Assembly (NCBI GenBank): GCA_903854805.1
Contig: CAINXK010000230.1
Location: 1 to 11,202, forward strand
Direction: 5' to 3'
Source of the DNA: an uncultured Anaerolineae bacterium
GTDB taxonomy: Bacteria; Chloroflexota; Anaerolineae; Anaerolineales; Villigracilaceae
DNA length: 11,202 nt
Below, in pieces: positions 1 through 11,202 of this stretch (positions are counted from its first letter, which is position 1; every line of letters starts with the position of its first letter). A program made the position numbers and the translations under genes. The notes beneath the pieces were generated by a model. The model had not been told where the DNA came from and did no database searches. It saw only the letters and a program-made list of their open reading frames with translations.

Positions 1-590
1 ACCATGAACCTGATCGAACCCTGGTTATTATTTTCGACAAGATTACCTCCACCAATTCAGCGCAGCAAGAAACGCTGGTACCGTTTTAACCTCTTTGATA
101 TAACGCCAATCCACACGTGCCAAAAAAATTTATCTATCCTGTTCTATTTCAAACATCACAAATTATTACCCATGAAATATCCAGAAGAAAAAAACCAATG
201 CTTGTTAATTCAGCGCGAACCGGTCCACAGCACGATGGGCTAACGGTTGTCCGATTGGCGCGTACATTATACAACTTCCTATTGGATAAATTCCTTAGTA
301 CCCAATTATCGCACAAGCTACAGAGATATGCAAAAATTCTCAGTTACGCAAGATGACCCGTACAGGTATCAATTCTATCAGTGATGTATGCCCAAATTTT
401 GCATCTTTTATTAAAACAAGTTACGTATCCCTATCAGTCTGTTTCCCGAGACTGTCTTATGTATTTTCATATTTGGATACCAGCTGTAATTCACATCTAG
501 GAAAACCTAAAAAATGGTATTTCAAATATAAAGAGCCCGACTTTATTGTATCCAAAACCTTAATATCGCACGGCACCATTCTTACATATT
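1..590. other. Gene-free AT-rich leader region
   Basis: No convincing gene was found here on either strand. The short open frames lack recognisable motifs, overlap each other and have no ribosome binding sites. The stretch is visibly richer in A and T than the coding region to its right. It contains an inverted repeat at 435-454 and scattered copies of the half-site GGTATC or its complement GATACC (365-370 and 476-481), the same word that builds the operator at 611-632. It probably serves as the upstream regulatory region of the LacI-headed operon, but it could also hold the eroded end of an unrecognised gene. No tRNA was seen. Confidence 0.5.
435..454. repeat. Inverted repeat, 6-bp arms, 8-nt loop
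   Basis: The arms CAGTCT (435-440) and AGACTG (449-454) are perfectly complementary around the loop GTTTCCCG. A moderately T-rich stretch follows but no uninterrupted T run, so a rho-independent terminator for an upstream transcript is possible but weak. It could equally be a protein-binding site. Confidence 0.35.
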
Positions 591-603
591 TTGTGGTATC
601 ATA

Positions 604-632
604 TTGACAACGTATGGTATCGATACCATACG
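604..632 (+). promoter_or_regulatory. Promoter of the LacI-headed operon
   Basis: A perfect -35 hexamer TTGACA lies at 604-609. With a 17-nt spacer the -10 position falls at 627-632 (CATACG, a poor match), inside the right arm of the operator palindrome. The start codon of the regulator follows at 657, so the leader would be about 20 nt. The perfect -35 next to an operator covering the spacer and -10 is a typical repressor-controlled layout. The -10 assignment is uncertain. Confidence 0.5.
611..632. promoter_or_regulatory. Perfect 22-bp palindromic operator
   Basis: The left arm CGTATGGTATC is followed directly by its exact reverse complement GATACCATACG, giving an uninterrupted 22-bp palindrome centred on CpG. 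LacI-family operators are usually palindromes with a central CG, where the paired hinge-helix leucines intercalate. The repressor encoded 25 bp downstream keeps that hinge leucine, so autoregulation of the whole operon is the simplest reading. Another half-site, TGGTATC, lies at 594-600, exactly 21 bp (two helical turns) before the same word at 615-621. Confidence 0.75.
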
Positions 633-656
633 TCCAAAGACACAAGCGAGCACCCA

Positions 657-1691
657 ATGACAACCATCCATGATGTGGCCAAACGAGCCGGAGTTGCCTC
701 AATCACTGCTTCACGGGTGATCAACAATTCCGGCTATGCCAGCGAAGCTGTGCGCAAACGCGTGCAGGATGCTGCCAGAGAAATGGGATATGTACCCAAC
801 CGCCTGGCCAGCAGCTTGCGCTCACGGCGCACGAATGTGCTGGCGCTGGTACTGACCGATATCACCAATCCTTTTTTTACGGTAGCAGCTCGCGGCGTGG
901 AAGATGTTGCCAACCAGGCAGGTTACACTGTAATTTTCTGTAATACAGATGAAGACAAAACCAAAGAACAGAAATATGTCGAGATATTAATGCAAAATCG
1001 GGTCGATGGGGTCATCCTGGTACCAAGCGATTCTGATTCTGGATCAGTTGAGACTTTGCAACAAAACGGCGTTCCCGTGGTGGTCATCGACCGGCACGTA
1101 CCGAGCAAAACTGTCGACCAGGTACGTTGCGATTCGATCGGCGGCGCCCACGATCTGACCCGGCTCTTAACCTCGCTCGGACACCAGCACATCGCACTCT
1201 TGAACGGACCGCAAAATGTATCCACCGCAGCTGACCGCCTGACCGGGTTTCAACTGGCAATGCAGGAGGCTGGCAACCCGGCCCGGGCAAATCAAGTGAT
1301 CATCTCTGGATCTTTCAACCGTGCCAGCGGCTATGAGATGGCCCGACAGGTGCTTTCGATGTCACCTCGCCCAACCGCCCTGCTGGCAGGTAACAACTTC
1401 ATTGCCTTGGGCGCTTTGCAGGCCCTGGAAGAAGCCCGCGTGCGCGTGCCGGAAGACATGGCCGTGGTGGCCTTTGACGACCTGCCGGAATCCCTGGTAG
1501 TTTCGCCCTTTTTGACAGCCGCTGCCCAGCCCGTCTATGAAATGGCGACCAGGGCCACTGAAATTTTGATTCGACGCCTGGGAAACAACACTGAAAAAGA
1601 GTTTAGCGAAGTCATTTTCCCCACCCGGCTTATATTACGAAAATCGAGCGGCGCAGCCATCCATCCTGAGACTTCTTCGCTGCCCAGCTGA
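657..1691 (+). CDS. LacI-family transcriptional repressor
   Basis: A 344-residue protein of normal LacI-family length. Residues 2-25 form the helix-turn-helix (TIHDVAKRAGVASITASRVIN), and the hinge follows at about 47-56 (VPNRLASSLRS) with the minor-groove leucine at L54. Residues about 60-330 are a periplasmic-binding-protein-like sensor domain, recognisable from TDITNPFF, GVILVPSD, VVVIDR and VAFDDLP. The recognition helix has TASRV where the family usually has TVSRV. An in-frame TTG at 591 would add 22 residues translated from the promoter and operator, so the ATG at 657 is chosen; its ribosome site is weak. It is separated by 42 bp from the epimerase gene and probably controls the sugar genes downstream and itself. 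The ligand is unknown, plausibly a sugar or sugar phosphate of the encoded pathway. Confidence 0.93.
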   Translation: MTTIHDVAKRAGVASITASRVINNSGYASEAVRKRVQDAAREMGYVPNRLASSLRSRRTNVLALVLTDITNPFFTVAARGVEDVANQAGYTVIFCNTDEDKTKEQKYVEILMQNRVDGVILVPSDSDSGSVETLQQNGVPVVVIDRHVPSKTVDQVRCDSIGGAHDLTRLLTSLGHQHIALLNGPQNVSTAADRLTGFQLAMQEAGNPARANQVIISGSFNRASGYEMARQVLSMSPRPTALLAGNNFIALGALQALEEARVRVPEDMAVVAFDDLPESLVVSPFLTAAAQPVYEMATRATEILIRRLGNNTEKEFSEVIFPTRLILRKSSGAAIHPETSSLPS

Positions 1692-1733
1692 CCCGTCACA
1701 CAACCAGAAACACAAATCAAGGAGACTATAAAA

Positions 1734-2777
1734 ATGACAAACATGATTGCAGCAACCGATCCCAACCTCAAAAAAGACGACCTGATCGTAATAACCGGTG
1801 CAGGCGGCTTTATTGGAGGTTCGCTAGTGCGCTACTTCCAGGAACAGGGCTTTACCAATTTGCGCGCCGTGGATAAAAAACCACTGCCCACATGGTACCA
1901 GCGTGTACCAGGTGTGGAATGCCTGAGCATGGACTTGAGCCAGGAAGAAAACTGCATCCGCGCCGTGGAGGGCGCAAAAGAAGTTTACAACCTGGCAGCG
2001 GATATGGGCGGCATGGGCTTTATTGAGCGCTTTCGCGTCGAATGCATGCGCAGTATTCTGATCAACACCCACATGCTCGAATCGGCCTACCGGGCCGGGG
2101 TGGAACGCTATTTCTTCTCGTCATCCGCCTGTGCCTATAATATCTCGCTGCAACAAGACTCCAACGTGAGCGCGCTCAAAGAAAGCGATGCCTACCCGGC
2201 CAATGCCGAGCGTGGTTACGGTTGGGAAAAATTAATGTCTGAAATGTTCTGCCAGGAATATACATCCGAGCGCGGCATGAAAACCTTCATTGCGCGCTTC
2301 CACAACGTCTACGGGCCCAACGGCACCTGGGACGGCGGACGTGAAAAAGCCCCTGCAGCTATCAGCCGCAAAGTTATTACCGCCAAACAAAGCGGCAAAC
2401 ATGAAATCATGATCTGGGGCGACGGCAGCCAGACCCGCAGTTATATGTTTATAGAAGACTGCGTACGCGGAATCGACATGATTACGCACTGCGACGCACT
2501 GACAGCCACCCCCATCAACCTGGGCTCGAGTGAACTAGTATCGGTTAACGAATTGGTCAGTATCGCAGAGCAGATCGCCGGCGTAAAACTGGAACGCAAG
2601 TATGATCTCACAGCACCACGCGGGGTAGCCGGGCGCAACAGCGACAACACCTTCATCCAAAAAATGCTAAACTGGGAACCATCCACATCTTTCCGCACCG
2701 GACTGGCAAAGACCTACGCCTGGATTGAACAGCAATATATCGACCGACAGGCCGGCAAGCGGGTCGTCACCGAATAA
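1734..2777 (+). CDS. GDP-mannose 3,5-epimerase-like SDR enzyme
   Basis: A 347-residue extended short-chain dehydrogenase/epimerase. TGAGGFIG at 21-28 is the NAD-binding glycine motif. The protein carries a set of motifs that, as I recall them, mark plant GDP-mannose 3,5-epimerase (GDP-D-mannose to GDP-L-galactose): NLAADMGGMGFI (86-97), SSSAC (129-133), the YxxxK pair Y162/K166, RFHNVYGPNGTWDGGREKAPAA (188-209), WGDGSQTRS (228-236) and GRNSDN (300-305). C133 and K205 align with the acid/base pair C145 and K217 of the Arabidopsis enzyme. AAGGAG at 1719-1724, 9 nt upstream, supports this start over the ATG three codons later. The partner gene at 3647-4735 resembles the next plant enzyme, which strengthens the substrate call. 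A related sugar-nucleotide epimerase with another hexose substrate remains possible. Confidence 0.85.
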   Translation: MTNMIAATDPNLKKDDLIVITGAGGFIGGSLVRYFQEQGFTNLRAVDKKPLPTWYQRVPGVECLSMDLSQEENCIRAVEGAKEVYNLAADMGGMGFIERFRVECMRSILINTHMLESAYRAGVERYFFSSSACAYNISLQQDSNVSALKESDAYPANAERGYGWEKLMSEMFCQEYTSERGMKTFIARFHNVYGPNGTWDGGREKAPAAISRKVITAKQSGKHEIMIWGDGSQTRSYMFIEDCVRGIDMITHCDALTATPINLGSSELVSVNELVSIAEQIAGVKLERKYDLTAPRGVAGRNSDNTFIQKMLNWEPSTSFRTGLAKTYAWIEQQYIDRQAGKRVVTE

Positions 2778-2862
2778 ATCCGCCCGGCAGATCTCTGCCA
2801 GGCTACAAGACCCATGCCATCTGGATGTTTTTCACCCAGGTGGCGCAAGGTGAAACGCCAAA

Positions 2863-3645
2863 ATGGTCGATATCACCCAGATCATCAAAAAAATTCCGTA
2901 CCGGCTCGCGCTTTCAGGCGGTTGGATTGATCAACCTTTCGTATCTCGAAACAACCCTAGCCCACCCGGCTCAATGGTCGTGGTAGGCGTGCAGCCCGAT
3001 TTTCGCTTCATGGATCGCTGTGGGATGGGCACCAGCACACGCCAGGTAGCTGCTCGGCTCTGGAATGGAACACTGCCGCAACGCGACCCCGCCGAAATGG
3101 TCCAGGAGTTATATGCTGCCGAAAATGAAGGCCTGGCCGAGCCATCCGGCTCTCAAGACATGGCCGGATTGATTTATCCCGGTGTCAACCGCCTGGATTA
3201 CGACCACAATTATTCTGGCGGAATTTTTCCTGTTCGGATCGAATCGAATACAGACTCACAGACCGCCGCCTGGTTGGAAAACGTCATGCACATCTTACCT
3301 GTTGCGCCACGCCCGGCAGGATACAACCCCTTTGGCAATGAAAACCTGGCCCCAGAATGGGTTCAACGCCTGGGCCAGAGCGGGAAGGCTTGCTACACAG
3401 CCATTGAACAACGTGACAGCAGCGCCTTGGGCGAAGCCATGAATGAATGCATGCGCTGCTGGGAAGCCATCCTACCGCGAACCGTGCGCCATCCTTTACT
3501 GACCCTTGACCTGATGGAACTGCTGGCGTTTTATCAACACCGTTACGCCGGAGCCATGTATTCAGGCTGTGGTGGTGGATATCTTTACATCGTTTCAGAA
3601 CAACCCGTACCCGGATCCTTCCAGATCAGGGTACGTTTGGAGTAA
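2863..3645 (+). CDS. Compact GHMP-superfamily sugar kinase-like protein
   Basis: A 260-residue protein with GHMP-kinase hallmarks. Motif 1 is PYRLALSGGWIDQP (12-25), which recalls the GGWxDTP motif of L-fucokinase-type enzymes. The phosphate-binding motif 2 is GMGTST (54-59), an acceptor-side motif is PSGSQD (94-99), and motif 3 is the glycine-rich SGCGGGYLYIV (234-244). It would phosphorylate a sugar with ATP; L-galactose is an attractive guess because L-fucose is 6-deoxy-L-galactose. Only about 30 residues separate motifs 1 and 2, against roughly 100 in typical members, so the N-terminal domain is strongly reduced. AAGGTGA at 2847-2853 lies 9 nt before the ATG. The 85-bp gap after the epimerase is the longest in the operon. 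The protein is paralogous to the C-terminal half of the gene at 4728-5825. Substrate, and even activity, are inferred. Confidence 0.7.
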   Translation: MVDITQIIKKIPYRLALSGGWIDQPFVSRNNPSPPGSMVVVGVQPDFRFMDRCGMGTSTRQVAARLWNGTLPQRDPAEMVQELYAAENEGLAEPSGSQDMAGLIYPGVNRLDYDHNYSGGIFPVRIESNTDSQTAAWLENVMHILPVAPRPAGYNPFGNENLAPEWVQRLGQSGKACYTAIEQRDSSALGEAMNECMRCWEAILPRTVRHPLLTLDLMELLAFYQHRYAGAMYSGCGGGYLYIVSEQPVPGSFQIRVRLE

Positions 3646-3646
3646 T

Positions 3647-4735
3647 ATGCCCGACACTGGAAGCCCGTTTTCATCCGAAAGTCAGTTCCGCGCCAGGTAT
3701 CGAGACAAATTATCCGCCATGCTGCGAGCCAACACTACCGCCCACGATTTTGGGCTGAGCACGTTTGTCCTGGTGTGCGCCAATGCCTATTTTGACCGCG
3801 ATATTCTGAACGAGCTGGACAATGACCTGCGACGGGCCTTTATCAACATCCGCGAGAAATACTTTCGGCTTTTTGCAGAAGGACAGATCCTGGATGAGCG
3901 CCATGCCGAAGATCTACTGGTGTTTTTGAAAATTGCGCTGGTTGGGCTGGAACAACTGCGAGTAACAGAACACCGGCCCCTGGGTGAATGGACGCTCCAG
4001 TTTAACCACATCCGCTCATTCAGACCACAGAGAACCGCAGCCAGGTCGGTGCCATCCATCGATATCCCTTTTAACGAAAATTCCTTTCACTACGACGCGG
4101 CACTGTGCGAGCGGGAAAGCTTCTGGTCTGGCAGCCTGGCAGTCAAAAACGTTTCCTTGCTGTATAACAAATACCCTTTCGCTCGCCTACACGCACTTCT
4201 AATTCCGGAACCAGAAAGAAAACAACGGCAATTCCTGGATCGCGAAAACCATGACTGGGCCTGGAATGCGGCTCAATCTCTGGCGCAAGACCTGCCAGGA
4301 TTTGGCCTGGGTTATAACTCGTTGGGAACCTTCGCTTCAGTGAATCACCTGCACTTTCAAACCTTTATCGAACCAAACGGCATGCCTGTCATGCAAAACA
4401 GCTGGAAACACAATGGTGGCAGCCAGGAATACCCGCTGCCATGCATTGTATTTGACTCAGTAGAAGCTTCGTGGAAATGGATGGAAAGGATCTACACCCA
4501 AAACAGCACTTCCTTTAATTTGCTATACACACCCGGGAAGATCTTTTGCTTCGAGCGTAAACGCCAGGGCACCTACCGGCATGCGCGCTGGACAAGCGGT
4601 TTTGCATGGTATGAACTGGCCGGGAACATCATCACCTTCAGCCGTGAAGACTACAGCGCCCTGACACCCGACCGGATCGAAAAAGAGTTTAAAAAACTAA
4701 AAATCCAGCAGAAACAGAAGAACTCGGATGCCTAA
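3647..4735 (+). CDS. GDP-L-galactose phosphorylase (VTC2/GDPGP1)-like protein
   Basis: A 362-residue HIT/GalT-superfamily protein. Residues 135-345 follow the order seen in plant VTC2 and animal GDPGP1: PFNENSFHYD (141-150), NVSLLYNKYPFARLHALLIP (168-187), GYNSLGTFASVNHLHFQTF (222-240), SFNLLYTPGKIFCF (289-302) and WYELAGNIITFSREDY (321-336). HLHFQ at 234-238 is the HxHxQ signature, and H236 is the expected nucleophile that forms a guanylyl intermediate. The family cleaves GDP-hexoses with phosphate to GDP and hexose 1-phosphate. The first ~110 residues are a mainly helical extension I cannot assign. An upstream in-frame GTG at 3569 would overlap the kinase gene by 77 nt. The ATG at 3647 sits 1 nt after the kinase stop with GGAG at 3639-3642, so it is preferred. 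GDP-L-galactose is the likeliest substrate given the epimerase upstream; GDP-D-glucose or GDP-mannose are alternatives. Confidence 0.8.
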   Translation: MPDTGSPFSSESQFRARYRDKLSAMLRANTTAHDFGLSTFVLVCANAYFDRDILNELDNDLRRAFINIREKYFRLFAEGQILDERHAEDLLVFLKIALVGLEQLRVTEHRPLGEWTLQFNHIRSFRPQRTAARSVPSIDIPFNENSFHYDAALCERESFWSGSLAVKNVSLLYNKYPFARLHALLIPEPERKQRQFLDRENHDWAWNAAQSLAQDLPGFGLGYNSLGTFASVNHLHFQTFIEPNGMPVMQNSWKHNGGSQEYPLPCIVFDSVEASWKWMERIYTQNSTSFNLLYTPGKIFCFERKRQGTYRHARWTSGFAWYELAGNIITFSREDYSALTPDRIEKEFKKLKIQQKQKNSDA

Positions 4736-5825
4736 AAAAGCCTTCGTCAGCGGTTGTTTTGATTTGCTCCACAGTGGTCATGTGGCCTTCTTTGAAGAAG
4801 CCGCCCGCTATGGCGAGCTATATGTCGCGATTGGTTCTGATCGCAACGTCTTTGAACTCAAACGACGCCCCACCATCAACAGCGAAGCCGAACGCCTGTA
4901 TATGATCAAATCTTTGGCGTATGTAAAGGATGTATTTGTAGCCAAAGGTTCAGGGGTTTTGGATTTTGTGCAGGAACTGGCTGTGATCAAGCCTGACTAT
5001 TTTGTGGTCAACGAGGACGGAAGCACGCCAGCAAAGAAAAATCTGTGCGAGGAATTGGGAATCGAGTACGTTATCTTAAAACGCGAACCCCACAGCGGTC
5101 TGGCTGCACGCTCAACCACCGCCCTGAGAGGCGCGAGCCTGATCCCCGATTACATCGGGCTGGCAGGCGGCTGTCTGGACCTGCCGGAAATTTCAAGGCT
5201 TGCTCCCGGCCCAGCCATCACCATCTCGATCCAGCCACTCCCGGAGCATTCATCCAGCACACGCAGGGCCGCGATCGAATTATGGGATGCGCGCCTGCCG
5301 GCGGACAAGCCCGAAAAGCTGGCCAAAGTTCTTTTTGGATATACAAACCTGCCTGGCACTGCTGAAATCCGCGGCTCAAAAGCCGCGCTCGGCATCTGCT
5401 TACCAGGCGTATCCAGGACAGATTACAGCGGACAATACTGGCCGGAACGTATAACCAATCAGCAAGATGAAGCTATCCTGAAATTCATCGAAGACTCGCT
5501 TATCGTGATTCCGTTTGATTTACAAACGACCTCATCGTACCCACACAAAATGACTGCCCGTGCAACAGAAGCCCACTGCCAAGCCGCTGAAGCCTGCTGG
5601 CAGGCCATCCTAAAGCAGGATAAGCTGGCTTTTGGGCAGAGCCTGACGGCAAGTTTTGAATCCCAAACCGCCATGCTCCCACCAGACAAAACCACCCAGG
5701 AACTGATCGCCACCTATCGGGAACAGGTCCTGGGATGGAATATCTGCGACCTGGGACTGTTACTTGTGACTGACAAACCGTTGGAAAACGCCACCCGCAT
5801 CAGCCTACGGCATGCGAACGATTAA
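4728..5825 (+). CDS. Cytidylyltransferase-like / degenerate GHMP fusion
   Basis: A 365-residue two-domain protein. Residues 1-134 form a TagD/RfaE-C-type nucleotidyltransferase: GCFDLLHSGH (9-18) holds the nucleotide-binding HxGH, and RSTTALR (128-134) matches the C-terminal STT signature. Such enzymes join a phosphorylated alcohol or sugar to CMP or AMP. Residues 139-365 align along their whole length with the stand-alone kinase at 2863-3645: GGCLDLP (147-153), SSTRRAAIELWDARLP (176-191), PGVSRTDYSGQYWP (226-239) and a shared LRH/RVR-type end. The ATP-site motifs are eroded: GMGTST has become EHSSST, PSGSQD has become IRGSKA, and the GCGGG loop is gone. This half is probably a pseudokinase or dimerisation module. 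The ATG overlaps the preceding stop by 8 nt, implying translational coupling. Product and nucleotide specificity are unknown; L-galactose 1-phosphate is a candidate acceptor. Confidence 0.75.
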   Translation: MPKKAFVSGCFDLLHSGHVAFFEEAARYGELYVAIGSDRNVFELKRRPTINSEAERLYMIKSLAYVKDVFVAKGSGVLDFVQELAVIKPDYFVVNEDGSTPAKKNLCEELGIEYVILKREPHSGLAARSTTALRGASLIPDYIGLAGGCLDLPEISRLAPGPAITISIQPLPEHSSSTRRAAIELWDARLPADKPEKLAKVLFGYTNLPGTAEIRGSKAALGICLPGVSRTDYSGQYWPERITNQQDEAILKFIEDSLIVIPFDLQTTSSYPHKMTARATEAHCQAAEACWQAILKQDKLAFGQSLTASFESQTAMLPPDKTTQELIATYREQVLGWNICDLGLLLVTDKPLENATRISLRHAND

Positions 5826-6244
5826 AGCCGCTGATTAAATTCGACCTTCTCGCCATCTGGGCCACGGACAGTGAAAAACCTGACCCCTTTCGACCAGAAA
5901 GGCAGAAACACCGGGGCATCCGGCTCAAGGATCTCAAAACCAGCAGCCTTGAGCTCGGTAAAAGCGCCATCAATATCCAGGACGTCCAGGGCAATATGAT
6001 CAATATGGCCATCCTGGCGCGAGGCCACTTCATCACGCCGCGCACCCGGCAGCTGGTACAGCTCAATCGTCAGGCCAGCCTTCTCCAACATCGCCACAAA
6101 CACCGTACCATCCGCCTCGGCCAGATCGGTACGCAGTGCAGTCACAAAACCAAGCTGCGCATAAAAAGCCTGGGAACGCTGTAAATCCGTGACCGGCAGA
6201 CCCAAATGCTGCAGCCCCTGCAAATTACCCTGTAAATATGGCAT
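5822..6244 (-). CDS. VOC/glyoxalase-fold metalloenzyme-like protein
   Basis: A 140-residue vicinal-oxygen-chelate family protein with two beta-alpha-beta-beta-beta repeats. The usual metal ligands are visible as H13 (LQHLGLPV), E61 (IELYQ), H83 (DHIALDV) and E136 (KVEFNQ). The RGPDGEKVEF ending is typical of glyoxalase I-like lactoylglutathione lyase relatives and of dioxygenase or isomerase members. The ligand set supports a metal-dependent enzyme, but the substrate cannot be read from sequence. A longer frame begins at 6322, but AAAGGAG at 6253-6259 places the start at 6244. The gene runs opposite to the sugar operon and its stop codon overlaps that operon's last stop. It is probably regulated separately. 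Confidence 0.85.
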   Translation of the reverse strand: MPYLQGNLQGLQHLGLPVTDLQRSQAFYAQLGFVTALRTDLAEADGTVFVAMLEKAGLTIELYQLPGARRDEVASRQDGHIDHIALDVLDIDGAFTELKAAGFEILEPDAPVFLPFWSKGVRFFTVRGPDGEKVEFNQRL

Positions 6245-6252
6245 GTTAAATA

Positions 6253-6259
6253 CTCCTTT
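6253..6259 (-). promoter_or_regulatory. Ribosome binding site of the VOC gene
   Basis: On the minus strand this reads AAAGGAG, 8 nt before the ATG at 6244. It is the best Shine-Dalgarno match in the window and decides the start against the upstream in-frame ATG at 6322. Confidence 0.75.
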
Positions 6260-6265
6260 CAGTGA

Positions 6266-6271
6266 AGTATA
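6266..6271 (-). promoter_or_regulatory. Putative -10 box for the VOC gene
   Basis: The minus strand reads TATACT, a 5/6 match to TATAAT, about 22 nt ahead of the start codon. No clear -35 hexamer is seen at the expected distance, and the leader would be only about 15 nt long, so an activator or a different start site may be involved. Confidence 0.35.
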
Positions 6272-6294
6272 GCAAAAGGTTGTGTTTTTAGGGT

Positions 6295-6314
6295 GGAATA
6301 TCCAGGAATATCCA
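6295..6314. repeat. Tandem 10-bp repeat upstream of the VOC gene
   Basis: GGAATATCCA occurs twice head to tail with no spacer. Each unit contains GGA-N3-TCC, a small inverted repeat, and the units are one helical turn apart, as for cooperative binding of a regulator. The location upstream of the VOC promoter fits an activator or repressor site, but a chance duplication is equally possible. Confidence 0.4.
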
Positions 6315-6322
6315 GCACACAA

Positions 6323-6568
6323 AAATACATGGCATTTCTGAAATCCATGGCTCGCTTATGAACAATAACTACCCATAAGCTCCGCAACTTAGATTCCCTG
6401 ATAACAAACGAAGGTAAACCCATTTATACTCTGCAACCTGGGGTGTCGCCTGTGAACCCGTCTGCCGGGCCCGGGAAGTTGGTTAAAATATTTGGTCTCT
6501 CCATCAGCCGAACCAAAGAAATTGTCCGGCTGTCCTGCCTGAGCGCGGGCATGTAGTTGGTCTGCTAG
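6323..6568. other. Intergenic stretch without recognisable gene
   Basis: No supported coding region was found. Frames on both strands are short and carry no family signature; the longest minus-strand frame (6389-6610) mirrors the region without recognisable motifs. It leads straight into the 5' side of the DUF6585-like pseudogene, so part of it may be the eroded N-terminal portion of that gene. Confidence 0.4.
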
Positions 6569-7239
6569 CTGCCAGCCAACTTTGAAGCTAATGAAAGCCC
6601 GGGCACTCACACGGGCATTACCCTGCCAGGCTTCTTCATCGGCCTGCCAATGTTCTTCGGGATCTGGCAGCTCTTCAGGATGGCGGGCGTTTCACTGGAG
6701 CTGTACGAACATGGGCTGATCTACCGACCCCACGGCCTCGAATTCATGACGACCTGGAATGAAATTGTGACCCTGAATGGTACCCGTACTTGCCTGATCA
6801 CTCGCCAAGACGATCGCCAGGTTGAATTTGGCGCCGGGATCGCAGGCTTTGAAGAATCCGCCGGGACAATCTGGTGCGCCTGCCTACGTCACCTGCTCCC
6901 CGGCAGCCTTGAAGCACTGCGAGCCGGGTCAAACGTAACCTTTAAGGGAATCCTGCCATTTGGTAAAACCCGCCGGGCCGGCGGCTGAACAATTCCATGG
7001 CCGCCAGCGCTGGTTTCAGCGCGGACGCGCGGGGCATTCGCAGCCTGGAGGGCGAAAGCAAAAACATCCCGTGGAACCAGGTCAGGCGCAATGACGCCTT
7101 GGGCCGCCGGCCGGTGAATGTCTATTTTTTCGAAAGCGCCCAGGTCGAGTTAAAAACACGCCTGGACCTGCTCTCCAACGCCCAGGTGCTGAGCAAACTA
7201 TGGACAGAGATGACGGGGTTGGATGAAAAAGTTATATAA
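6569..7239 (+). pseudogene. Frameshifted DUF6585-like protein remnant
   Basis: Two consecutive frames together read like one DUF6585-type protein. The first is open from 6569 (after a TAG at 6566) to a TGA at 6986-6988. It encodes a hydrophobic segment (FFIGLPMFFGIWQLF), then LELYEHGLIYRP and the TTWNEIVTL stretch typical of the family. The second, one base back, is open from 6967 to 7239 and supplies a family-like end with NIPWNQV and a C-terminal LSNAQVLSKLW. Joining them requires a single-base change between 6967 and 6988. The first frame has no ATG before 6650, so the 5' end is also missing or altered. The family is uncharacterised. A sequencing error at the GC-rich hairpin could explain the frameshift but not the missing start. 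Confidence 0.55.
6970..6984. repeat. GC hairpin at the frameshift point
   Basis: CCGCCG, loop GGC, CGGCGG: a perfect 6-bp all-GC stem exactly where the two frames of the DUF6585-like remnant must be joined. Such structures cause indels and base-calling errors. No canonical heptameric slippery sequence precedes it. Confidence 0.6.
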
Positions 7240-7255
7240 GCGCATCATCCGCGCC

Positions 7256-7264
7256 TGATATAAT
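7256..7264 (+). promoter_or_regulatory. Extended -10 promoter of the helicase pair
   Basis: TGATATAAT is a perfect extended -10 element (TGN followed by TATAAT). No good -35 is seen at the usual spacing, which extended -10 promoters can tolerate. Transcription would begin near 7271, giving a leader of about 46 nt before the helicase start at 7317. Confidence 0.6.
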
Positions 7265-7316
7265 TATTTACAATCCCTGACTCTTATTCAAACCTGCAAC
7301 CAGAACCCAAAAAATC

Positions 7317-9044
7317 ATGACCGGTCATCAAGCCCTGCTCCAACGTTTGCGCGAGCATGTCAACAGCGAGTTTGCTACTCAACTGGCCAACCTGCAACGC
7401 CAATGGCAGCTGCCACTGGGCGAGCGGGTTATGCACGGCTATGCAATTGAAGGCTTGCGGGTCACGCAGGTGAAGGAAGGTTTGATTCATCTGAACTGCC
7501 AGACCAATGATTCACGCTTTCGCGAGGGGGATTTTCTTGTAATGCACCGCAGCACACCCGTTGGATTGGAGGCTGCCCAGGTGCTATTGGAATATGACGA
7601 TGAAACCTCGCTGGTTGTATCCATGCTGAGTGGGAATCCTTTCATGCTGCAAACCGAACCCGAGGGCTGGATTGCGGATGAGAGCATCCTGGATTTGCGT
7701 TTTTTTCACCTGGATGCCCTGGATGAAGTGGCAGACAGCTGGCGCGGCCGCGAAATTATCCTGCCCCTGTTAAGCGGTACGCGCAGTCCCCAGATTGATT
7801 TTGCACGCTACGAACGCGGCTTCCTGGCAGCCAGGCAGTTCGGGCTGGACGAATCACAGTCCGAGGCCATTGCGCAGGCTTATGCCACCGATCTGTACCA
7901 TCTCATCCAGGGACCGCCTGGTACGGGTAAGACTTTCGTTTTGGCCCACTTGGTGCACTTACTGGTAGCGGATGGATACCGCGTGCTGGTCAGCGGGCTA
8001 ACACACCGCGCCATCAATAACGCGCTCAACAAGATCTACGACATTGACCCCATGTTACCTGTCTGCAAAATCGGGCTCGAATCGCGGGCAGGGGACTTGA
8101 ATGTGCCAAATTATGAAAATTTTATCGAATCTGGATTTGGCGATTTAAGCAAGGGCTATGCAGTTGGGGGCACCCCCTTTGCCTGCCGCAGTCAAAAAAG
8201 GCTGGCTGGTGTGGAGTTCGATGTGATCATCTTTGACGAAGCCTCGCAGATCACGCTCTCGCTGGCGATCATGGGAATGCTATCTGGAAAGAAATATATT
8301 TTTATTGGAGACGAACGCCAGCTGCCCCCGGTCACCTCGCTCAAAAGCACTTCAGGCGCCAACACTTCCATTTTTAGTTACCTGAGCGGGCGTGGCGCAG
8401 AAAAAATGCTGACCACCACTTACCGCATGAATGACATCATCTCACGCTGGCCCAGCCACGAGTTTTATAACGATCAACTACGCCCAGATCCGCATGTGGC
8501 CAACCGGCGGCTTACACTTAAACAAACCGATGGAATCTGGGATCACGTTCTGAACCCGGATGAACCGCTGGTCTTTATCGACCTCCATCAAAGGGGCAAT
8601 ACCACCCGCAGCCAAAGGGAAGCTGAAATCATCACTGGGATCATCCAATCCCTGCTCAGCGCCCAGCTGCTGGCCGAACAGATCGGGGTGGTTGTACCGT
8701 ATCGAGCCCAGGGTCGTTTGATCCGCAGCCTGCTACGCAGCAGCCTGGCAAATGCCGGGACAGCCAGAGAAATCGTAGTGGACACAGTCGAACGCATGCA
8801 AGGCCAGGAACGCGAAGTGGTTTTTGTCTCGCTGACCACTTCAAACGCCACCTTCGCCGCTCAACTGGCAGATTTTTATTTTCAACCCGAGCGTCTGAAC
8901 GTGGCCATCACCCGCCCGCGCACCAAGTTGATCATCGTTGGCTCGAAAAATGTCCTGAAGGCGGAACCTGCTCTGCCCGAACATCAAGACTGGGTTCAAA
9001 TGCTGAGCAGGCTGCTGGATACCTGTACCTTGGTCACACTTTAA
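7317..9044 (+). CDS. SF1B (Upf1/Dna2-like) helicase
   Basis: A 575-residue ATP-dependent helicase with a full superfamily 1 motif set: Q motif around Q181, Walker A GPPGTGKT (199-206), Ia VLVSGLTHRAINNAL (223-237), Walker B DVIIFDEASQ (302-311), III IGDERQLPPV (330-339), IV TYRMNDIISRWPSHEFYN (368-385), V DTVERMQGQE (489-498) and VI RLNVAITRPRTK (526-537). DEAS and the ERMQGQE/AITRPR pair point to the Upf1/Dna2/IGHMBP2 branch, normally 5'-to-3' on single strands. About 180 N-terminal residues appear beta-rich, like the 1B/stalk domains of this branch; no nuclease or iron-sulphur cluster cysteines are apparent. The ATG lacks a clear ribosome site but is the first start after the promoter. The gene abuts the UvrD-like gene. 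Its role could be repair, RNA surveillance or defence. Confidence 0.9.
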   Translation: MTGHQALLQRLREHVNSEFATQLANLQRQWQLPLGERVMHGYAIEGLRVTQVKEGLIHLNCQTNDSRFREGDFLVMHRSTPVGLEAAQVLLEYDDETSLVVSMLSGNPFMLQTEPEGWIADESILDLRFFHLDALDEVADSWRGREIILPLLSGTRSPQIDFARYERGFLAARQFGLDESQSEAIAQAYATDLYHLIQGPPGTGKTFVLAHLVHLLVADGYRVLVSGLTHRAINNALNKIYDIDPMLPVCKIGLESRAGDLNVPNYENFIESGFGDLSKGYAVGGTPFACRSQKRLAGVEFDVIIFDEASQITLSLAIMGMLSGKKYIFIGDERQLPPVTSLKSTSGANTSIFSYLSGRGAEKMLTTTYRMNDIISRWPSHEFYNDQLRPDPHVANRRLTLKQTDGIWDHVLNPDEPLVFIDLHQRGNTTRSQREAEIITGIIQSLLSAQLLAEQIGVVVPYRAQGRLIRSLLRSSLANAGTAREIVVDTVERMQGQEREVVFVSLTTSNATFAAQLADFYFQPERLNVAITRPRTKLIIVGSKNVLKAEPALPEHQDWVQMLSRLLDTCTLVTL

Positions 9045-11069
9045 ATGGCACAAATCATCCCGGCATCCCCACTCGGCAGCCTACCAGCCGAAGTACTGAA
9101 AACCTTCCGGTTTTTTAAAAACCTACCGGAAGACTATCGTGTCTGGCACCACCTCACGCCCTGGGAACTGGAAGCGCCTGATTTCTTTCTATTGGACCCA
9201 GCAGGCCGGGCCCTACTGGTAAAGGTCAGTACTCAGAGTGATCAGAACTCCCGCCCGGCAGCCCAGCTGCTGCTAATGGGGGACGACCGCAGCATACTGG
9301 GAGACGCCCAGCAGGCTGTCCTTAAATTATTTTTGGAACGGCTGCCTGCCGAACTGGCAGCCCAAATCCCAGCCCTGGTTGTATTCCCGAACATCACCAG
9401 CCGGCACCTGGCTGCCAGCCAATCCCCAGAGCAGGCAGCCCAGTACAAATGGATTGGGCAGGAACAGCTTCAGGGTGCAAACTTACCCGCCTGGCAGGCC
9501 TTGTTTAGCGGGAAACGCCTGCGGGAAACCGGCATCGACCTGCTGCGGGTGAAATTCACACCCGAGTCAGTCGTCCCGGCTGCGCTAACCGTACGCCCGC
9601 CCCAGGATGGGAAACAGCCAGCCGGGCTGACTGATTATTTGCTCGACAGCCAGCAAGAACAGGCTGTAAAAAATGACCTGGAACTGCCAGCCGAACAAGA
9701 AAACACTTCCAGAGATTTCCAGGTGGGCATCATCAACGGCGTGGCAGGCAGTGGAAAAACCCTGATCCTGCTTTATCGCCTGCGCCTGCTGCAAGCTATG
9801 TTTCCACAGAAACGCTTCCTGGTCCTGACCCATAACAAGCCCCTGATCCGTGATTTGCGCAGCCGCTTCGAGCGCCTTTCTGATTCCAATCTACCGCGCA
9901 ATATCACCTGGGAAACGTTTAACGGGTTCTGCCGGCGGCACTGGCCGGAAACCGCAGCGGATGTCTGGCAAAAACCCATTAACCAAACCCAGCGCGTGCG
10001 GTTGGTCACCAGCATCTTGGAAAAACATTTTTCCGGCACATCCATCACTGCCGAGAGCCTGGCCGGCGAACTGGATTGGTTCAAAGACCAAATCCCGATG
10101 GACAGATCCGCTTACCTGGCCGTGATACGAAAAGGCCGCGGGTTTCGGCTGAGCCGCGAACAACGCGAGAAAATGTGGGAGGCCATGGCAGATTACCAAC
10201 ACCAGCTTAAAACCAGCGGCCTGGTAGACTGGAGCGATGTCCCGCGCCGCATGTGGAATTTTATCCGCGAAAACAAGGTCAGACTACCAGTTTACGATGT
10301 GGTCATGATCGACGAAGCCCAGTTTTTCGCCCCAATCTGGTTTGAAATTGTACGCCGCAGTGTGCGACCTAAAAGTGGCCATCTCTTCATCGTGGCCGAT
10401 CCCACACAAGGCTTTCTCAGGCAGGGCACTTCCTGGAAGTCGCTGGGCGTGGACGCGCGCGGCCGCATTCATAATATTCGCCGTTCCTATCGTTCCACTC
10501 ACGAAATCCTGAACTTCGCCACTCTGTTTTACCGCCGGCGGGTTCCGAAAAATGATTCAGACGATGACATCCTGGCGCCCGACCTGCTGAACATGCCGCG
10601 CGGCGTCTTACCGGTTCTGCTGCCGGTGCGCAGTGCCCAGGACGAGATCGGCGTGGTGACCGCTGAAATCGTTTCCCTGCACCAAAAAGGCTATCCACTG
10701 GGAAATTTATTGGTACTGCATGCCGAATTTGGGGTGGAAGCCCTGATTGAATCCCTGAACAGGCATCTCGGCCCAGGCCAGGCGATTGACCCAAAAAATG
10801 CGCCGCCCGGTGACTGTGTGCGAGTCACCACCCTGAACGCTGGTACCGGGCTGGAAAGCCCGATCGTTTTCCTGGTTGGATTAAACCACCTGTTCGAGCG
10901 CGAACAAAGCCTGCGCCTGTCAGATGATGAGGTGGAGCAGCTGGTACTTGAAAACACCCGTAAAGTATACATGGCCGCAACCCGCGCCGGGCAAAGACTG
11001 GTCATCACTTATGTTGGTGAGGTGCCCGCCTCGCTGCGCGAGCTGTTGGTAAACCAACTCCAGGGCTGA
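9045..11069 (+). CDS. UvrD-like SF1A helicase with NERD-like N-terminus
   Basis: A 674-residue protein. Helicase motifs run from 232 to 655: Walker A GVAGSGKT (232-239), Ia LVLTHNKPLIRDL (259-271), Walker B VMIDEAQFF (420-428), III IVADPTQGF (449-457), IV RRSYRSTHEIL (479-489), V TTLNAGTGLESPIVFLVG (595-612) and VI VYMAATRAGQRLVIT (641-655). Motif III has ADPTQ instead of the common GDxxQ. Residues 10-120 resemble a NERD nuclease-like domain (LKTFRFFKNLPEDYRVWHH, then APDFFLLDPAGRALLVKVS), but the catalytic ExK strand seems replaced by KVS, so nuclease activity is doubtful. The ATG directly follows the TAA of the preceding helicase with no spacing and no ribosome site, suggesting termination-reinitiation and a fixed ratio of the two proteins. 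The helicase call is firm; the NERD call is tentative. Confidence 0.88.
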   Translation: MAQIIPASPLGSLPAEVLKTFRFFKNLPEDYRVWHHLTPWELEAPDFFLLDPAGRALLVKVSTQSDQNSRPAAQLLLMGDDRSILGDAQQAVLKLFLERLPAELAAQIPALVVFPNITSRHLAASQSPEQAAQYKWIGQEQLQGANLPAWQALFSGKRLRETGIDLLRVKFTPESVVPAALTVRPPQDGKQPAGLTDYLLDSQQEQAVKNDLELPAEQENTSRDFQVGIINGVAGSGKTLILLYRLRLLQAMFPQKRFLVLTHNKPLIRDLRSRFERLSDSNLPRNITWETFNGFCRRHWPETAADVWQKPINQTQRVRLVTSILEKHFSGTSITAESLAGELDWFKDQIPMDRSAYLAVIRKGRGFRLSREQREKMWEAMADYQHQLKTSGLVDWSDVPRRMWNFIRENKVRLPVYDVVMIDEAQFFAPIWFEIVRRSVRPKSGHLFIVADPTQGFLRQGTSWKSLGVDARGRIHNIRRSYRSTHEILNFATLFYRRRVPKNDSDDDILAPDLLNMPRGVLPVLLPVRSAQDEIGVVTAEIVSLHQKGYPLGNLLVLHAEFGVEALIESLNRHLGPGQAIDPKNAPPGDCVRVTTLNAGTGLESPIVFLVGLNHLFEREQSLRLSDDEVEQLVLENTRKVYMAATRAGQRLVITYVGEVPASLRELLVNQLQG

Positions 11070-11202
11070 AACCACTAGCCATCCCAGGCGGCAAGTCAGC
11101 AATTCTATTTTGAAATAAAATAAAAGTAAGGGGAGAATTTGGGCAGACTAATTTCCGGGGCCTGGCAGATCCGAATTATGTTGCTTGATTAGAAGTTGTA
11201 GC
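11070..11202. other. Intergenic tail, no gene seen
   Basis: This 133-bp stretch after the UvrD-like stop holds no recognised gene. The A-rich part near 11101-11130 contains no stable hairpin followed by a T run, so no intrinsic terminator can be called for the helicase operon. Confidence 0.5.

Follow-up and report, generated by a model that had tools for sequence, protein, structure and literature searches.

A lacI-linked gene cassette of Anaerolineae as a candidate GDP-sugar route for L-sugar breakdown

What would a bacterium do with two proteins that resemble successive enzymes of the plant L-galactose pathway, encoded beside a sugar kinase and a nucleotidyltransferase? The question is raised by an 11,202-nucleotide stretch from an uncultured Anaerolineae bacterium (contig CAINXK010000230.1, positions 1 to 11,202), hereafter the window. 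Five genes on its plus strand encode a LacI-type regulator, a short-chain dehydrogenase/reductase (SDR) of the GDP-mannose 3,5-epimerase (GME) type, a short GHMP-type protein, a HIT-type protein resembling GDP-L-galactose phosphorylase (GGP, VTC2), and a PF01467 nucleotidyltransferase (NT). Our preferred answer, to which we assign a probability of about one half, is a LacI-regulated cassette for the catabolism of an L-sugar, most likely L-galactose, through GDP-sugars, a mirror image of a Leloir-like pathway. The route would lead from L-galactose through L-galactose 1-phosphate (L-Gal-1-P), GDP-L-galactose and GDP-mannose to mannose 1-phosphate, opposite to the plant direction. The genes, their families (indirectly for GHMP and HIT), the conserved neighbourhood, the operator and the position of ManC in place of GGP are established; from them we infer the reactions, their direction, the sugar and the nucleotide.

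The cassette comprises the following features.

613..630 (no strand): LacI-type operator, a perfect 18-bp palindrome, TATGGTATCGATACCATA
657..1691 (+): LacI-family transcriptional regulator of the cassette, 344 residues, with Pfam LacI and periplasmic-binding domains
1734..2777 (+): GME, 347 residues, with C133, Y162, K166 and K205, assigned by PDB matches and tree
2863..3645 (+): short GHMP-family sugar kinase, L-fucokinase-like, 260 residues, assigned via relatives; predicted L-galactose (L-sugar) 1-kinase
3647..4735 (+): HIT-superfamily protein, GGP/VTC2-like, 362 residues, with HLHFQ at residues 234-238; predicted GDP-hexose phosphorylase or guanylyltransferase
4728..5129 (+): PF01467 NT domain with HSGH and RSTTALR (Pfam CTP_transf_like, 9e-15); predicted sugar-1-phosphate nucleotidyltransferase
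5130..5825 (+): degenerate GHMP-kinase-like half of the NT protein, stop codon included, recognised by blastp, hhalign and alignment

The gaps are 42 bases (lacI/GME), 85 bases (GME/GHMP) and 1 base (GHMP/HIT), HIT and NT overlap by 8 bases, and the whole NT protein (4728-5825, +) has 365 residues. An initial annotation of the same sequence had described four of these open reading frames (ORFs), from GME to NT, and all were found on the same strand at the coordinates it gave; its inventory was incomplete, as it overlooked the lacI gene, the palindrome and the degenerate GHMP half of NT.

A conserved lacI-GME-GHMP-NT unit

The five best PDB relatives of the window SDR are all GMEs (1.5e-78 to 2.1e-75), the next enzyme class following at 1.4e-24. 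Its catalytic residues align with those of solved GMEs, namely C133 (SSAC, 130-133), K205 (GREKAPAA, from 202) and Y162/K166 (YxxxK); the role of these Cys, Lys and Tyr residues in GME is described in the accessible parts of PMC6678494 and PMC8787198. Judged by sequence the SDR is a genuine GME, with predicted activity on GDP-mannose. The initial annotation had proposed this likeness and had placed C133 and K205 correctly; the matches did not lead to another epimerase class.

Conservation was assessed in 26 contexts (L001-L003, L104-L106, L167-L186), which are the loci of window-type GHMP genes from samples of 120 and 396 genomes; a partial match in G034, a 129-base match in G372 (L107) and G502 were left out. 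Scoring in the 298- and 396-genome scans covered the first few candidates of each genome, which makes their genome counts lower bounds. Since many contexts are short contigs (that of L104 stops shortly past the kinase), absences carry limited weight. Neighbours named without a family search were labelled by blastp to labelled genes or by eye. The window-type GHMP gene was strong in at least 20 of 396 genomes and partial in two more. GME adjoins the kinase in 23 of the 26 contexts, in 19 as a complete gene, in three truncated at the edge of the contig (L172, L173, L179) and in one as a fragment (L105); it is lacking in three (L171, L174, L186). NT is present in 24 contexts (not in L178 and L184), a lacI homologue (>45% identity) in 15 and the GGP-like HIT gene in three. 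The conserved unit is lacI-GME-GHMP-NT, with the GGP-like gene a rare option. The co-occurrence expected by the initial annotation was borne out for GME, GHMP and NT and failed for the GGP-like gene, and its four genes were rejected as the distinctive unit, since the GGP-like gene is optional and ManC stands in its place in other cassettes. Correlations of pairwise distances (lacI-GHMP 0.77, lacI-GME 0.76, GME-GHMP 0.68, GHMP-NT 0.52, GME-NT 0.32) involved no species-tree comparison and were not used as evidence.

ManC, a GDP-mannose pyrophosphorylase, is encoded in four contexts (L105, L106, L171, L172), and a 115-residue fragment of it in L181 adjoins a type I mannose-6-phosphate isomerase gene. 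None of the 26 contexts has both ManC and the GGP-like gene. The ManC genes of L105 and L106 follow lacI-GME-GHMP-NT, the same place as the HIT gene in L002 and L003; they score 325-336 bits with TIGR01479 (cut-off 373; a model of a longer fusion), and the remaining copies were assigned by 63-65% identity to them. G372, the genome of L105 and L106, comes from the family sample, where the HIT gene was confined to G001-G003. It has two lacI-GME-GHMP-NT-ManC cassettes, with the GME of L105 (1907-2206) recognisable as a fragment only.

The operator palindrome of the window ends 26 bases 5' of the lacI start codon, and a TTGACA (604-609, by eye) lies just ahead of it. A consensus was built from palindromes near lacI starts and scanned on one strand, being palindromic. 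With up to three mismatches it gave 19 sites across 14 of 39 scanned sequences (window included), which are not independent of the consensus because it was drawn from the same sequences. All 14 carry the cassette, and the sites always lie within it, either ahead of lacI, between lacI and GME or ABC-transporter genes, or ahead of GME (L170). Sites were found in 13 of the 26 related contexts and in 13 of 16 lacI-bearing sequences (window included; not in L183, L184, L185). The controls were 77 cassette-free HIT-gene loci and mononucleotide shuffles only: the consensus had zero sites in the 1.07 Mb of these loci, and shuffling the 527 kb five times gave two sites in all. There were likewise zero sites in the 12 scanned sequences without the cassette.

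The kinase, the nucleotidyltransferase and the HIT protein

The window GHMP protein itself has no match among Pfam or NCBIfam models, and its assignment goes through relatives. It is homologous to the C-terminal halves of the NT proteins (hhalign 5e-46; blastp about 1e-24), 10 of 21 of which match Pfam GHMP_kinases_C. A profile of this paralogous C-half matches FKP, the bifunctional L-fucokinase/GDP-fucose pyrophosphorylase of Bacteroides, in the PDB at 8e-8, and proteins of L001 and L082 match FKP too. Within the window-type family, 10 of 26 members match FKP weakly (best 3.6e-5), and the family's own profile reaches it at a weak 0.15. SGGWIDQPF, CGMGTSTR and SGCGGGY occur in the window protein, and we take them to be the GHMP glycine-rich motifs; the fold model is poor (predicted local distance difference test 61). 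Among the characterised enzymes found, L-fucokinase appears closest to this kinase family. The window protein is presumably also like HddA of the ADP-heptose pathway; an analogy with that pathway was not adopted, the SDR being a GME and the relatives' neighbours L-fucose and L-rhamnose genes.

The window NT has two domains. Its N-half is a PF01467 domain above the cut-off, for which the nearest named NCBIfam model is rfaE domain II, below its own cut-off, and an FKP-type GDP-fucose pyrophosphorylase domain is lacking; its C-half duplicates the GHMP protein in degenerate form, having lost the glycine-rich motifs.

Other NT architectures were also seen. In 21 of the 24 NT-bearing contexts NT resembles the L003 protein (7137-7961), with two tandem PF01467-type domains, the first of which has no HxGH by eye in L003; the degenerate partner in the window is a GHMP domain instead. 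Bifunctional PF01467 NT-GHMP kinases of about 380 residues are encoded in L108 (10274-11416), L109 (4226-5368) and L111 (9037-10179), and the same type in L082 (9206-10351) and L110 (11596-12738). They adjoin FucI or FucU in L108, L109, L111 and L082 and a fucosidase-like gene (by eye) in L110, and resemble an FKP in which the nucleotidyltransferase domain is an unrelated one. An intact and a degenerate NT-GHMP copy apparently occur together on several metagenome contigs.

For the HIT protein, called VTC2-like in the initial annotation, the motif was found as described: HLHFQ at 234-238 is an HxHxQ, a HIT motif in which one of the conserved His residues is replaced. The family assignment turned out weaker than implied, with 14 bits for Pfam HIT against a cut-off of 21.5 and weak PDB matches. 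One of two relatives scanned exceeded that cut-off, at 22.1, and no Pfam or NCBIfam model names the protein. An alignment of 40 rows has 51 invariant positions, including H234, L235 and H236, with F237 and Q238 conserved in at least 90%; HxHxQ fails to single out GGP, because other HIT enzymes of this branch share it. The label PF26217, carried by at least 120 homologues, presumably denotes a GDPGP1-like family. The AlphaFold2 model is confident (93.5). A GDP-hexose phosphorylase-type enzyme is plausible.

Could the HIT protein instead be a dinucleoside polyphosphate phosphorylase, or another housekeeping nucleotide phosphorylase, present by chance? It shows no sequence closeness to solved GDP-hexose enzymes: PDB searches matched no characterised GGP/VTC2/GDPGP1 member, and the 40-row profile weakly matched a HIT protein (E 0.0037), Ap4A phosphorylase (0.033) and aprataxin. 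Moreover, a scan of genome contigs, in which 80 of 87 relatives were kept, found the whole set at three Anaerolineae loci (L001-L003) and no GME, kinase or NT gene within the stretch examined at the other 77 (L004-L080). These 77 loci tell little on function, since no other ORF family occurs in more than 21 of the 80. Chance is opposed by the position of the HIT gene within the operon in two gene orders, one in the window and L001 and the other in L002 and L003, and by ManC, a GDP-mannose enzyme, taking its place elsewhere; we consider a housekeeping role unlikely. The HIT proteins of L004-L080 are 30-50% identical to that of the window and come mostly from beta- and gammaproteobacterial records, with one from Altiarchaeales and one from Bacteroidetes. 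Within Anaerolineae the gene is rare (at least 1 of 298 class genomes; 3 of 120 genomes of the family of L003).

Plant GGP, though reversible, strongly favours breakage of GDP-L-galactose, with a reverse Km of 45 mM for L-Gal-1-P and guanylyltransferase activity under 10%, according to the available text of a 2024 review (PMC11066809). Phosphorolysis of GDP-mannose or GDP-L-galactose is thus the favoured reaction for the HIT protein, and a GalT-like use is no strength of the plant enzyme, which counts against that part of our proposal. The same text describes GGP as generally specific to green plants, though metazoans and some scattered protists have proteins like it.

Direction of the pathway and nature of the sugar

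In the catabolic route that we prefer, the GHMP protein would phosphorylate the imported L-sugar at C1, and NT would activate the resulting 1-phosphate to GDP-L-galactose with release of pyrophosphate. Working in the L-to-D direction, GME would turn GDP-L-galactose into GDP-D-mannose. The last step would in the window fall to the GGP-like HIT protein, freeing mannose 1-phosphate with phosphate or through a GalT-like exchange of GMP with L-Gal-1-P; in related cassettes ManC would carry it out in reverse, and a housekeeping enzyme might also serve. The ManC variant would reuse the pyrophosphate of the activation step and regain GTP. Mannose 1-phosphate would then enter glycolysis via mannose 6-phosphate.

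The neighbours of the related cassettes bear on this direction. Same-strand sugar ABC-transporter genes occur in eight of the 26 contexts (L002, L003, L104, L105, L167, L169, L170, L172), called by blastp at 30-82% identity to labelled genes and in L002 by eye, with matches of 25-27% (L168, L178, L185) left uncounted. A same-strand gene of the GH29 (PF01120) alpha-L-fucosidase family was identified in at least six (L167, L168, L169, L177, L184, L185), from candidates picked by eye. L167 and L169 show the order lacI, operator, three ABC genes, GME, GH29, GHMP, NT. FucI lies near L001, L002 and L003 (above curated cut-offs), a FucU-type mutarotase near L001 (above cut-off) and L002 (below; a listed frame without start), RhaA (above cut-off) and RhaD- and FucA-like aldolases near L001, and RhaB- and RhaM-like genes (below cut-offs) near L001 and L002. 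FucI is enriched in genomes with a strong GHMP gene (at least 13 of 20, against at least 52 of 376 others; one-sided Fisher p 6e-7, the related genomes not being independent). Because of the kinase, the LacI operator, the importers, GH29 and the L-fucose and L-rhamnose genes by some relatives, breakdown is likelier than a flow from GDP-mannose to L-Gal-1-P. The suggestion of the initial annotation that L-Gal-1-P is re-activated as another nucleotide sugar gave way to this reverse direction, and its guess of free L-galactose salvage comes close to the reading preferred here.

MtaA/uroporphyrinogen-decarboxylase-like genes (L001 2599-3696 and 12834-14162, L104 5993-7096, L105 5007-6095) also recur beside L-fucose/L-rhamnose and cassette genes.

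A plant-like flow from GDP-mannose to L-Gal-1-P and L-galactose, for ascorbate or release, is suggested by GME and the GGP-like protein being successive plant steps, and a PHP-domain-like ORF (by eye) in L173 and L186 could supply a phosphatase. It would be opposed by the kinase and NT and lacks the GGP-like gene in 23 of 26 cassettes. Galactonolactone dehydrogenase was above its curated cut-off in none of five cassette genomes, with sub-threshold matches in all five and in 7 of 14 control genomes. This result, from a family search that covered galactonolactone dehydrogenase among the later plant enzymes, and the gene content led us to reject ascorbate synthesis, and we hold the plant-like direction as a whole to be highly improbable. 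That an operon with a sugar kinase and NT does not follow the plant route, as the initial annotation had noted, agrees with the gene content.

More weight has to be given to biosynthesis with salvage, in which GDP-L-galactose for glycans would have two sources, GME acting on GDP-mannose, and kinase plus NT acting on scavenged L-galactose, as FKP does for L-fucose. Bacterial GME is already known (PMC6678494) and linked to lipopolysaccharide in the accessible parts of PMC6678494 and PMC8787198. In a midpoint-rooted tree of 35 GMEs, a branch with 100/100 support parts 22 enzymes from the 13 others, which belong to the same family sample. The 22 comprise 20 cassette enzymes and two (G383, G333) from glycan-synthesis-type clusters without kinase or NT. 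Glycosyltransferase-, NeuA- and NeuB-like genes (by eye) neighbour the GMEs of L133 and L134 and of the clade B contexts L135-L137. The GME evidence speaks for an unchanged reaction in the cassette, whichever way it runs. ManC could equally supply GDP-mannose for the opposite direction, together with ManA, and L179 and L183 contain a glycosyltransferase-like ORF (opposite strand, past NT) and an acyltransferase-like ORF, respectively (both by eye). The ManC point, the two GMEs from glycan-synthesis-type clusters and the L179 ORF tell against breakdown. Conversely, apart from the L179 ORF no glycosyltransferase was recognised by eye in the 26 contexts, the LacI operator, the sugar importers and GH29 suggest that a sugar is taken up and degraded, and a GGP-like phosphorylase would destroy GDP-hexoses. 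Biosynthesis with salvage is, in our view, somewhat unlikely.

Alternatively, the natural sugar may be L-fucose (6-deoxy-L-galactose), with kinase and NT making an NDP-L-fucose on which the epimerase acts. The nearest characterised kinase is L-fucokinase, GH29 and L-fucose genes lie nearby, and the bifunctional relatives stand beside L-fucose genes in L108, L109 and L111. L-galactose is a substrate of Bacteroides FKP too, which phosphorylates it and forms GDP-L-galactose, with a Km about 100-fold above that for L-fucose (accessible part of PMC11982464), so the cassette kinase too may prefer L-fucose, to the detriment of the L-galactose proposal. Against L-fucose, this sugar already has a route in at least 13 of the 20 kinase-bearing genomes, those that carry L-fucose isomerase. 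Furthermore, ManC and the GGP-like protein suit hexose rather than 6-deoxyhexose products, and GME acting on GDP-fucose would yield GDP-6-deoxy-mannose, with no obvious use. We judge L-fucose to be quite unlikely as the natural substrate.

Further observations weigh against L-galactose breakdown through GDP-sugars. We know of no PF01467 guanylyltransferase, the known PF01467 enzymes using CTP or ATP rather than GTP. No transporter, glycosidase or fucose gene was seen in the window itself; GH29 was not seen in 20 of the 26 contexts (no systematic search) nor a same-strand sugar transporter in 18, several of both being short contigs; and 13 of 27 cassette-bearing sequences had zero operator sites. 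In some relatives the sugar may meet another fate, since dehydrogenase-, Gfo/Idh- or PHP-like ORFs (all by eye) occur in five contexts: dehydrogenase-like ORFs on the cassette strand in L168, L170 and L178, two Gfo/Idh-like ORFs after GME-GHMP, in the place of NT, in L178 (6068-8307), and the PHP-domain-like ORFs between NT and kinase in L173 (1354-2259) and L186 (6952-7860). Overall, the observation behind the initial annotation is confirmed and its interpretation partly supported.

Outside the cassette, the window contains two adjacent helicase genes, 7317-9044 (IGHMBP2-like) and 9045-11069 (UvrD-like), with partial matches to models of defence-system helicases (MkoA, C3a187, GajB).

Comparison with known systems

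No paper among the matches listed from the open literature, as far as their accessible text goes, concerned L-galactose breakdown via GDP-sugars or a bacterial GGP. If correct, the proposal would add a nucleotide-sugar route for L-sugar breakdown, give bacterial GME, tied so far to lipopolysaccharide, a catabolic role, and place a GGP-like enzyme in bacteria. It would also provide a sensor for L-galactose and enzymes with which L-galactose and GDP-L-galactose could be made, and its predictions are testable with single purified proteins. The published L-galactose catabolism found, the oxidative lgu route of Luteolibacter sp. LG18, likewise has L-galactose as a bacterial carbon source but proceeds by dehydrogenases to L-galactonate, with no nucleotide sugars in the accessible part of PMC12632266.

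With the plant Smirnoff-Wheeler (L-galactose) pathway the cassette shares GME and probably a GGP-like enzyme. It differs in its predicted opposite direction, in having a kinase, NT and LacI, and in the lack of galactonolactone dehydrogenase above cut-off in the five cassette genomes. FKP resembles it in combining a kinase and a nucleotidyltransferase that activate an L-fucose-type sugar, the relation resting on the NT C-half profile, whereas the cassette NT belongs to PF01467 (rfaE domain II/TagD type) and its kinase is a separate short protein.

The Leloir pathway (GalK, GalT, GalE) offers a parallel in logic. GalK belongs to the GHMP family and GalT to the HIT family, and the cassette likewise encodes a GHMP kinase, a HIT-type transferase or phosphorylase and an SDR epimerase. 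The order of steps would also be alike, from sugar to sugar 1-phosphate, nucleotide sugar, epimer and usable sugar 1-phosphate. By contrast, the cassette is predicted to use an L-sugar where the Leloir pathway has D-galactose, and probably GDP where that pathway has UDP, with a 3,5-epimerase and an optional last enzyme (GGP-like or ManC). An hhalign comparison with single E. coli K-12 GalT and GalK sequences stayed below 1% probability, no better than a mismatched pair; this single-sequence test is insensitive, because the expected GHMP-GalK relation was missed too. More tentatively, the cassette may represent a second, independently assembled Leloir-type pathway of Anaerolineae, in which a GHMP L-galactose kinase, a PF01467 guanylyltransferase, a catabolic GME and a bacterial GGP interchangeable with ManC would stand under one LacI operator, the GGP acting on GDP-mannose or as an L-Gal-1-P guanylyltransferase. 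By analogy in how it would work, shared ancestry with GalT and GalK aside, we file the cassette as a variant of the Leloir-type pathway.

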